Shown here: positions 55,223-60,140 of the stretch, one piece after another
Layout: the number at the start of each line of letters is the position of its first letter
How positions within the stretch are numbered: the first letter of the stretch is position 1
DNA from: Thalassospiraceae bacterium LMO-SO8
Lineage (GTDB): Bacteria > Pseudomonadota > Alphaproteobacteria > Rhodospirillales > Casp-alpha2
Length of the DNA: 64,000 nucleotides
NCBI GenBank assembly: GCA_031655335.1
Contig: CP134226.1
Coordinates: 1,364,001-1,428,000 of the forward strand
Direction: 5' to 3'
The notes under the pieces: model-generated
The model's input: only the letters and a program-made list of their open reading frames with translations
Database searches by the model: none
What the model was told of the DNA's origin: nothing
Program-made: the position numbers and the translations under genes

Positions 55223-57721
<2,499 letters not shown>

Positions 57722-57781: not shown

Positions 57782-59002
57782 TCATGGGTCCTGACGGCGG
57801 ACCTTGGCCTCGGCGACGTGGAAGAAGGCCGCCCGTCCGGCAAGCGGGCCGAACAGATCCAGGTCCGTGCCGGTCATCCAGGCCTGCAAACCCAGGGCTT
57901 CGATCTCGGCGAACAGGGCGGCGCGGCGGTCGGCATCCAGGTGGGCGGCGACCTCGTCCAGCAGCAGGATGGGCGCGCGCCCCTGTTCCGCCGCCTGTAG
58001 GCGCGCCTGCGCCAGCACCAGGGAAATCAACAATGCCTTCTGTTCGCCCGTGGAACAGTCGGCCGCCGGACGGCCCCGGCTTTTGTATTCGACATAAAGG
58101 TCGGAGCGATGCGGCCCGTGGGCCGTGCGCCCGCTGTCGCCGTCGCGTCCGCGCGCGGATTTCAACGCGGCCTTCAGGCGGTCCTCGGCGTCGAGGGCCG
58201 AGCCGCCGTTCAGCCAGGCCTCGACCTCGCCCTCGACGGCCAGGTCGGCGGCCGGAAACGGGCCGTCGCCGGCGGCCTCCAACTGGCCGGCCAGGCGTCC
58301 GGCCATGTCGAGCCGGGCCGCCGCGATGGCGACGCCGCGTTCCGCCATGGTGGCTTCCAGGGCCGAGACCCAGGCGTCGTCGCACCCGCCCCGCGCCGTC
58401 AGCAGGCGCAACCGTTCGCGCATCGCCTGCTCATACCCGCCGACGCGCCCCGCATGGGCCGGATCGCGGCCATAGACCAGACGGTCGAGAAACCGCCGCC
58501 GGGCCGAGGCGCCGTCGAGAAACAGGCGGTCCATCTGCGGCGTCAGCCATTGCAGGGAAACATGTTCGGACAGGACGGCCTGGGCCCGCTGGGCCGCGCC
58601 GTCGACATGGACCAGGCGTTTTTCCGCGTCGCCCGCCTCACCGGCGGCAAGGCCCGTGCCGACATCCGTTTCGCCGTCCGGGCCGGCCACCGTCGCCGCC
58701 ACGGCCCAGGGCCGGGGGCGGGGGGGCGCATCCTCGCCGGGGTCGCGGCGAGCGGCTTCCGACAGGCGCGCGCGGCGCAGCCCGCGGCCCGGGATCAGGA
58801 ACGACAAGGCTTCGAGGATGTTCGTCTTGCCCGCCCCGTTGGGCCCGGCCAGCACGACCGGCCCTTCGGGCACGTCAAGCCGCAGCGCGGCATAGCAGCG
58901 GAAGTCGCTCAGCGTCAGCCGGCGGACCGCAAGAGAGCCCGCAACGGCGGCGGCGGTTTCCGGGTATGCCCCATCGGCGGCAAATGTGGGTTGGACGTAC
59001 AG
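57782..59002 (-). CDS. recF: DNA replication and repair protein RecF, apparent CTG start
   Basis: The visible ABC-type ATPase motifs are GPNGAGKTNILEALSFL (Walker A), STGEQKALLISLVLAQA (signature) and LLLDEVAAHLDADRR (Walker B). RecF needs the N-terminal segment RLTLSDFRCYAALRLDV before Walker A, and this is encoded upstream of the first in-frame GTG (58873). No ATG, GTG or TTG occurs in frame between that GTG and the in-frame TAA ahead of it. A CTG at 59000-59002 lies 6 nt after AAGGA, so I use it, giving 406 residues. A frameshift or sequencing error is the alternative. It lies between dnaN and gyrB. Confidence 0.85.
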   Translation of the reverse strand: MYVQPTFAADGAYPETAAAVAGSLAVRRLTLSDFRCYAALRLDVPEGPVVLAGPNGAGKTNILEALSFLIPGRGLRRARLSEAARRDPGEDAPPRPRPWAVAATVAGPDGETDVGTGLAAGEAGDAEKRLVHVDGAAQRAQAVLSEHVSLQWLTPQMDRLFLDGASARRRFLDRLVYGRDPAHAGRVGGYEQAMRERLRLLTARGGCDDAWVSALEATMAERGVAIAAARLDMAGRLAGQLEAAGDGPFPAADLAVEGEVEAWLNGGSALDAEDRLKAALKSARGRDGDSGRTAHGPHRSDLYVEYKSRGRPAADCSTGEQKALLISLVLAQARLQAAEQGRAPILLLDEVAAHLDADRRAALFAEIEALGLQAWMTGTDLDLFGPLAGRAAFFHVAEAKVRRQDP

Positions 59003-59024
59003 GATCGTTCCTTAAAAAACCCGT

Positions 59025-60140
59025 TCAAACACGCATGGGCATGAGCACGAACAACGCACTTTCGTCGCCCGCTTCGCGCAACACCGTGGGCGAGGCCGCG
59101 TCGGCCATGGCCAGCGACGCCGTGTCGCCCTCGATCTGGCGGGTGATGTCGAGCAGATAGGCCGCGTTGAACCCGATCTCCAGGCCATCACCGTTGTAAT
59201 CGACCTCGATCTCTTCCTCGGCCAGCCCGTGTTCGGGGCTGGAGGCCGACAGCTTGAGCACGCCCGCCCCCAGGGTCAGCTTCACGGCGCGGGATTTCTC
59301 GGAGGAAATCGCCGACACGCGGTCGACGGCCGCGGCCAGAAGCTTGCGGTCGACGTCGAGCATCTTGTCGTTGTCGCGCGGGATGACCCGTTCGTAATCG
59401 GGGAAGGTGCCGTCGATCAGCTTGGACGTGATGACGATCTCGTCGATGGCGAAGCGCGCCTTGGTTTCCGACAGGCCGACGAAGACATCGCCGACGCTTT
59501 CGTCGATCAGCTTGCCCAGTTCCGTCACCACCTTGCGCGGCAGGATCACGCCGGGGATGCCGTCGGCGCCGTCCGGCAGGGGCACTTCGGCCGAGGCCAG
59601 CCGATGGCCGTCCGTGGCGACCGCGCGCAGCACCTTGGTGCCGTCCCGTTCGGCGACATGCAGATAGATGCCGTTCAGGTAATACCGCGTTTCCTCGGTC
59701 GAGATGGCGAACCGGGTGCGGTCGAGCAGCGTGTTCAGGTCGTGCACCGGCAGCTTGAACTGATGCGGCAGTTCGCCCGAGCCAAGAACGGGAAAATCCT
59801 CGGTCGGCAGGCAGGAAAGCGCGAATCGGGAGCGCCCGGCCTTGAGCACCAGTTGCCCGCCGCTTTCCTTTTCCATCACCACCTGCGCCCCTTCGGGCAG
59901 CTTGCGCACGATGTCGTAAAGGGTATGGGCGGGGGCCGTCGTCGCACCCGCTTCGGCGACATCGGCGGCCACGGCCTCGACGATGTCGAGATCCATGTCC
60001 GTGGCGTTGAGCGCCAGCTTGCCGTCGCCGGCTTCGATCTTCACGTTGGAAAGGATGGGGATGGTATTGCGGCGCTCTACAACGCTTTGCACGTGCCCAA
60101 GGCACTTCAGCAAGGCGGCCCGCTCGATTGTCAGTTTCAT
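59025..60140 (-). CDS. dnaN: DNA polymerase III sliding clamp (beta subunit)
   Basis: A 371-residue ring-forming processivity factor made of three similar domains. MKLTIERAALLKCLGHVQSVVERRNTIPILSNV is the typical N-terminus (here split as MKLTIERAALLKCL and RRNTIPILSN). The C-terminus ALFVLMPMRV is the family end. It binds polymerase, ligase and Hda through the cleft between domains 2 and 3. It lies 22 bp before the recF CTG and is separated from dnaA by a 305-bp gap. Confidence 0.97.
   Translation of the reverse strand: MKLTIERAALLKCLGHVQSVVERRNTIPILSNVKIEAGDGKLALNATDMDLDIVEAVAADVAEAGATTAPAHTLYDIVRKLPEGAQVVMEKESGGQLVLKAGRSRFALSCLPTEDFPVLGSGELPHQFKLPVHDLNTLLDRTRFAISTEETRYYLNGIYLHVAERDGTKVLRAVATDGHRLASAEVPLPDGADGIPGVILPRKVVTELGKLIDESVGDVFVGLSETKARFAIDEIVITSKLIDGTFPDYERVIPRDNDKMLDVDRKLLAAAVDRVSAISSEKSRAVKLTLGAGVLKLSASSPEHGLAEEEIEVDYNGDGLEIGFNAAYLLDITRQIEGDTASLAMADAASPTVLREAGDESALFVLMPMRV

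Follow-up and report, generated by a model that had tools for sequence, protein, structure and literature searches.

Conserved non-canonical start codons have been described for several bacterial genes. The sigR gene of Streptomyces starts at GTC in 32 of 34 species, with a conserved Shine–Dalgarno sequence (PMC5472188). The gene for initiation factor 3 (IF3), infC, has a weak start (ATT, ATC or ATA) in distant bacteria and takes part in an autoregulatory loop on IF3 (PMC5472188, PMC13009471). In S. aureus, cvfC1 (AUU) and ccpN (AUA) have conserved non-canonical starts behind strong Shine–Dalgarno sequences, and reporters of these starts gave ∼10%, and up to 30%, of AUG (PMC13009471). In sigR, as in the S. 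aureus genes, the non-canonical start reduces expression (PMC5472188, PMC13009471). CTG starts occur in the alphaproteobacterium Caulobacter crescentus, where they make up 0.7% of the mapped starts; recF is absent from the main text of that report (PMC4117421). No report of a CTG start of recF was found in the openly licensed literature, as judged by titles and the beginnings of abstracts.

The recF gene considered here lies in a window of 64,000 nucleotides (the whole stretch of DNA that was analysed, to which all positions refer) from Thalassospiraceae bacterium LMO-SO8. It is located between dnaN and gyrB in a dnaN–recF–gyrB cluster with all three genes on the minus strand. From its sequence, recF is predicted with a probability of roughly 0.9 to start at the CTG at 59002–59000, positioned by AAGGA. 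As in sigR, the non-canonical start is kept across a genus and is preceded by a Shine–Dalgarno sequence, and that of sigR lowers one protein relative to its cotranscribed partner; unlike sigR, in which the codon is GTC and repression involving IF3 was shown by experiment, the codon is CTG and is known here from sequence (PMC5472188). A weak non-canonical start is also shared with infC, but recF encodes no initiation factor (PMC5472188, PMC13009471). The S. aureus starts are similarly conserved and differ in codon, gene and phylum (PMC13009471). The features of the locus are as follows.

57782–59002, minus strand: recF coding sequence read from the CTG start, 406 amino acids plus stop; open frame, TIGR00611 score above the cut-off.
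59000–59002, minus strand: putative CTG start codon, presumably decoded as fMet; CTG in 8 of 8 genus genomes searched, this one included, with order-wide counts given below.
59009–59013, minus strand: Shine–Dalgarno sequence AAGGA with a 6 nt spacer to the CTG; duplex energy −5.1 kcal/mol here and −3.8 to −9.4 across the genus.
59012–59014, minus strand: in-frame TAA closing the recF frame upstream, read from the sequence.
58925–58999, minus strand: N-terminal extension, codons 2–26, ahead of the RecF core, as the TIGR00611 match starts at residue 27.
58871–58873, minus strand: GTG at residue 44, the first canonical start codon in the recF frame; it is not conserved, the relative L012 having CTG instead.
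59025–60140, minus strand: dnaN (sliding clamp), upstream neighbour, with an ATG start and the stop TGA at 59027–59025.
55223–57715, minus strand: gyrB, downstream neighbour, with an ATG start.

The frame encoding RRLTLSDFRCYAALRLDV was traced back by direct reading to the TAA at 59014–59012. It comprises 409 stop-free codons, beginning GGA ACG ATC CTG TAC GTC CAA CCC ACA TTT GCC, and contains no ATG, GTG or TTG before the GTG at 58873–58871, such that the conserved segment RRLTLSDFRCY is reached without any of them. Direct reading thus bore out the first-pass annotation on two points: that the N-terminal frame of recF runs back to a TAA without a canonical start, and that the CTG sits 6 nt past AAGGA. 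The dnaN stop lies 22 nt from the CTG. The 406-residue product scores 219 bits against the TIGR00611 (RecF) cut-off of 172, with residues 27–379 matching positions 2–339 of the 339-position profile; a start at the CTG would therefore add about 25 residues ahead of the core.

Eight genomes of the genus were searched, this one included, each with a long RecF match (66–100% identity). CTG TAC is present at the homologous place in all eight, although the RecF proteins differ by up to 34% from that of the window. Its neighbourhood varies, with ATC, GAC, GCC or TCT before the CTG and GTC, GCC or GCG after the TAC. The CTG follows a Shine–Dalgarno sequence throughout, with sites ranging from weak to strong; such conservation among relatives had been proposed as a test of the CTG start, and the contrary outcome named with it, a canonical start in close relatives and a frameshift in this genome, was looked for and not seen. 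As expected of a gene with a conserved non-canonical start, the conserved protein is reached without a canonical start codon in this genome, in five of the eight genus genomes and, in the order-wide sample described below, in 8 of the 126 recF genes. Canonical codons are present in the other three: L014 and L015, which are sister species, share a late TTG, to which L015 adds a GTG. L016 carries two GTG codons, one late and one located nine codons ahead of the CTG, so that an upstream GTG start is possible for L016. The dnaN stop and the CTG are 22, 22, 22, 20, 30, 29, 29 and 19 nt apart in the eight genomes, values that as a set are not multiples of 3, and the CTG and the RecF core are separated by 28, 27, 27, 27, 27, 45, 45 and 31 codons, always whole. 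Whole-codon lengths on one side and out-of-frame gaps on the other are expected for a start at the CTG. An in-frame stop is located four codons ahead of the CTG in seven of the eight. In pairwise comparisons within the genus, 116 of 336 sites differ in the 12 nt before the CTG and 101 of 672 in codons 2–9. Purifying selection on the extension residues was not found in codons 2–9 across the genus, where the 92 codon differences counted pairwise comprise 85 that change the residue and seven that are silent.

Other placements of the start have to be weighed against this arrangement. The ATC at 59005–59003 and the ACG at 59008–59006 are near-cognate, in frame and downstream of the TAA, and ATA, ATC or ATT also precedes the CTG in some other genera; were recF to begin at either, the CTG would be an ordinary leucine codon. 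However, the ATC lies only 3 nt past AAGGA, and within the genus the codon before the CTG varies (ATC, GAC, GCC, TCT), as does the one further back (ACG, GCG, GCC), whereas the CTG is found in all eight genomes. Both codons were dropped as neither is conserved in the genus, and a start at one of them is very improbable. Even less credible is a shorter RecF from the GTG at 58873, or synthesis by readthrough or frameshifting out of dnaN, for which that GTG being the first canonical codon in the frame and the dnaN stop being only 22 nt from the CTG might be adduced. This GTG is replaced by CTG in L012 and is located past the first conserved strand of RecF; initiation there would drop residues 1–43, including Arg35, which is invariant among 48 aligned RecF sequences, and the nearly invariant Leu31 and Phe34. 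It was therefore rejected, as was passage out of dnaN, given the in-frame stops between dnaN and the CTG in seven of the eight genomes. The faintest chance is given to a canonical start hidden by a frameshift or sequencing error, with the true start an out-of-frame ATG or TTG. Two such codons do lie near the start, an ATG whose first base is 58975 and a TTG whose first base is 58983, but seven other genus genomes have the same layout, L012 reads GCC GAA CGG in place of the ATG at 58975, and the stretch between the CTG and the core differs among species by whole codons. A slip in this genome is unlikely since CTG TAC is present in all eight genomes, five of which have no canonical start.

The comparison was extended to the order with 126 recF genes from 125 of the 224 genomes that were given handles (one, G034, gave two); these are mostly the higher-scoring matches, so that near relatives are over-represented. 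Some canonical codon is present in 118 of the 126 leaders. Among 117 distinct loci, recF lacks a canonical start in frame ahead of the core in 8. The neighbouring genes served as controls: an ATG is directly ahead of the first conserved residues of dnaN in all 87 loci where the pattern matched, and an in-frame ATG, the candidate start of gyrB, lies within 60 codons of the motif in all 101 loci that have it. In another genus (g52), the codon aligned at the start site is CTG in L130 and L156 and ATG, a canonical codon at the homologous place, in L123 and L124, and all four species continue with Ile-x-x-x-Gly-Leu-x-Arg-Gln. The first-pass annotation had placed the start of recF at the CTG, and this alignment adds to the support that the claim receives from conservation in the genus and from the order-wide Shine–Dalgarno association described below. 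In G034 (83% complete, 6% contamination), the two recF genes, L120 (contig C52) and L145 (C45), are 58% and 55% identical to that of the window, and their presence likely reflects contamination.

Many recF genes of the order open with a short motif, roughly start-x-G-x-Q-G-L-A. This N-terminal motif is common to many genera (e.g. L112, L122, L133 and L134) and is followed by a linker of variable length; one guess at its role is a contact with the clamp or the replisome. A motif model seeded from QGLA reached its score threshold in 76 of the 126 genes, with 50 below, and some of the 76 matches are other stretches (e.g. RLAV of the core itself in f29). The model mis-registers the genus of the window, whose six matches add nothing to the count at codon −4 and whose other two genomes fall below the score. 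Counted from the motif, CTG is found at codon −4 in 22 of the 76 genes, three times each at −7 and −1 and never at −8, −6, −5, −3 or −2. TTG occurs ten times at −3, and ATG and GTG five and four times at −2, so that the usual start codons occupy neighbouring places in other species. The leucine codons at −4 are CTG in 22 cases and others in 4, compared with 20 and 44 for the leucine of the motif itself (p = 5e-6). The glutamine of the motif is encoded by CAA in 33 of 38 cases, compared with 120 of 339 for glutamines of the gene body, which fits the A-rich bias that is usual just after start codons.

A Shine–Dalgarno sequence was taken as strong at a duplex energy of −6 or lower, a cut-off of which the site in this species (−5.1) falls short. 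In the recF leaders, a strong site precedes CTG in 37 of 98 cases, which come from 24 of the 42 CTG-containing genera, compared with 10 of 77 for the other CTN codons (CTC 2/24, CTT 8/43, CTA 0/10) and 407 of 3657 for all codons. The same count gives 2 of 61 for CTG in the dnaN and gyrB leaders (1/22 and 1/39, respectively), where ATG has a strong site in 7 of 100 and 24 of 133 cases. CAC is as enriched as CTG in the recF leaders (10/26) and ATC reaches 16 of 66, with some of these ATC and CAC codons adjoining a CTG; the count for TTG is only 13 of 91, and neither ATG nor GTG falls within the top 16 codons. Genes with an assigned CTG start account for 29 of the 37 strong CTG sites; the remaining 8 belong to other genes. 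A codon-blind search for Shine–Dalgarno sequences settled on a CTG in 20 of the 126 genes, and in six of the eight genus genomes, this one included, it picked a place other than the CTG. A start caller allowed any fourth codon selected CTG in 48 of the 126 genes, but the decoys GCG and GCC in 31 and 29; per occurrence, GTC (0.44) was selected as often as CTG (0.41), and genome G007 was called GTG. These two procedures are too noisy to stand alone, and the position-anchored and normalised tests were relied on instead.

Starts were assigned by eye, unblinded, for 86 of the 126 genes from position, motif and Shine–Dalgarno sequence. Among the 40 left open, L119 (genome G036) has CTT at the start site, or ATA before it, in a leader without ATG, GTG or TTG, and L188 and L192 (G097 and G120) have ATC. 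The assigned starts are CTG in 40 genes, TTG in 20, GTG in 15 and ATG in 11. The CTG had been called rare, which holds among genes in general but not for recF of this order, where CTG is the commonest single codon in this unblinded set. By these hand labels it occurs in 12 of the 24 families and 23 of the 62 genera sampled, whereas the account of sigR gives no sign of its non-canonical start in the other actinobacterial genera that it names (PMC5472188). Strong Shine–Dalgarno sequences accompany 29 of 40 CTG, 8 of 20 TTG, 0 of 15 GTG and 2 of 11 ATG labels, a ranking that is partly circular because the Shine–Dalgarno sequence was used in the labelling. A RecF tree of 125 rows and 85 states (L151 was dropped as too short) requires at least seven changes between CTG and other starts under the hand labels, two of them forced by well supported branches. 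On this tree CTG could either be old and have been replaced several times or have arisen several times. Taken together, conservation in the genus, the CTG/ATG alignment, the position anchored by the QGLA-like motif and the Shine–Dalgarno association make the CTG a very probable start of recF, which very probably recurs in the lineage as an inherited feature.

What the codon does for the cell is a further question. Mechanistically, fMet-tRNA would initiate recF at the CUG slowly, aided by AAGGA, and little RecF would be made from the dnaN–recF–gyrB cluster. By comparison, RecF of the lineage has a short N-terminal extension with CTG, TTG, GTG or ATG as first codon by species, CTG being common. 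In E. coli, CUG works at ∼1% of AUG. CUG has been quoted at 0.86% of the efficiency of AUG and at 0.024% of bacterial starts (PMC11497404), and among 36 triplets of close genomes, CUG had replaced 2 of 61 358 ancestral AUG starts (PMC5622118). Whether the weak codon holds the synthesis of RecF to a lower level than that of its cluster partners DnaN and GyrB appears evenly balanced, and it may also make recF sensitive to IF3. RecF binds DnaN; it is estimated at 50 per cell in E. coli, where ∼14-fold excess caused a ten-fold loss of survival (PMC10287930). If an excess of RecF destabilizes replisomes, RecF might be held low, and we tentatively suggest that the CUG has been kept or re-acquired through much of the order as a throttle, with the Shine–Dalgarno sequence, and perhaps a hairpin, limiting RecF to a small proportion of the DnaN level that would be sensitive to IF3. 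The predicted hairpin (58999–59012, minus strand) has four base pairs, AGGA/UCCU, by which the Shine–Dalgarno sequence pairs with bases 1 and 2 of the CTG. This pairing is predicted in all eight genus genomes (the window and L010–L016; AGGU/ACCU in L013) with a probability of 0.58–0.86 and would lower initiation further. The hairpin in this genome was not more stable than shuffled sequences (z = −0.17 and −0.64), and the prediction is weakened because C and U pair with a purine-rich Shine–Dalgarno sequence by composition.

A neutral origin, to which we give the same tentative weight, would leave the CTG as the start and deny only the throttle: CUG would initiate tolerably, little RecF would be needed and the NTG codon would drift without regulation. 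The repeated switching of recF among CTG, TTG, GTG and ATG, with the seven or more changes on the hand-labelled tree, is consistent with such drift, and the 0.7% of Caulobacter starts that are CTG suggest that CUG may work better in this lineage (PMC4117421). Against it, CTG is kept in all eight genus genomes despite the divergence of their RecF proteins and, by hand labels, in all four of genus g6, and ATG is used less often than the three other recF starts (11 of 86, hand labels) in contrast to the uniform ATG of the neighbouring dnaN (87/87).

In the same genome, the frame of infC (L217, contig C1, ∼1798548–1799045, minus strand) reads AGG AGC AAG GCA ATA GCA CGC CGC CCC ATG. The ATG has no close Shine–Dalgarno sequence and the ATA comes after AGGAGCAAGG; IF3 of this genome may thus start at ATA, as has been reported for S. 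aureus (PMC13009471).

Start prediction commonly assumes ATG, GTG or TTG (PMC5472188), and recF annotations of these genomes therefore probably carry a wrong start, leaving the N-terminal extension unseen. Judged from sequence comparison, recF is unremarkable as a gene but has a highly unusual start codon, which is kept in the genus and reappears across the order, in contrast to the rarity quoted for CUG (0.024% of bacterial starts; PMC11497404). Alongside infC and sigR, it would offer a natural, testable case of translational throttling, here of a repair protein linked to the replisome.
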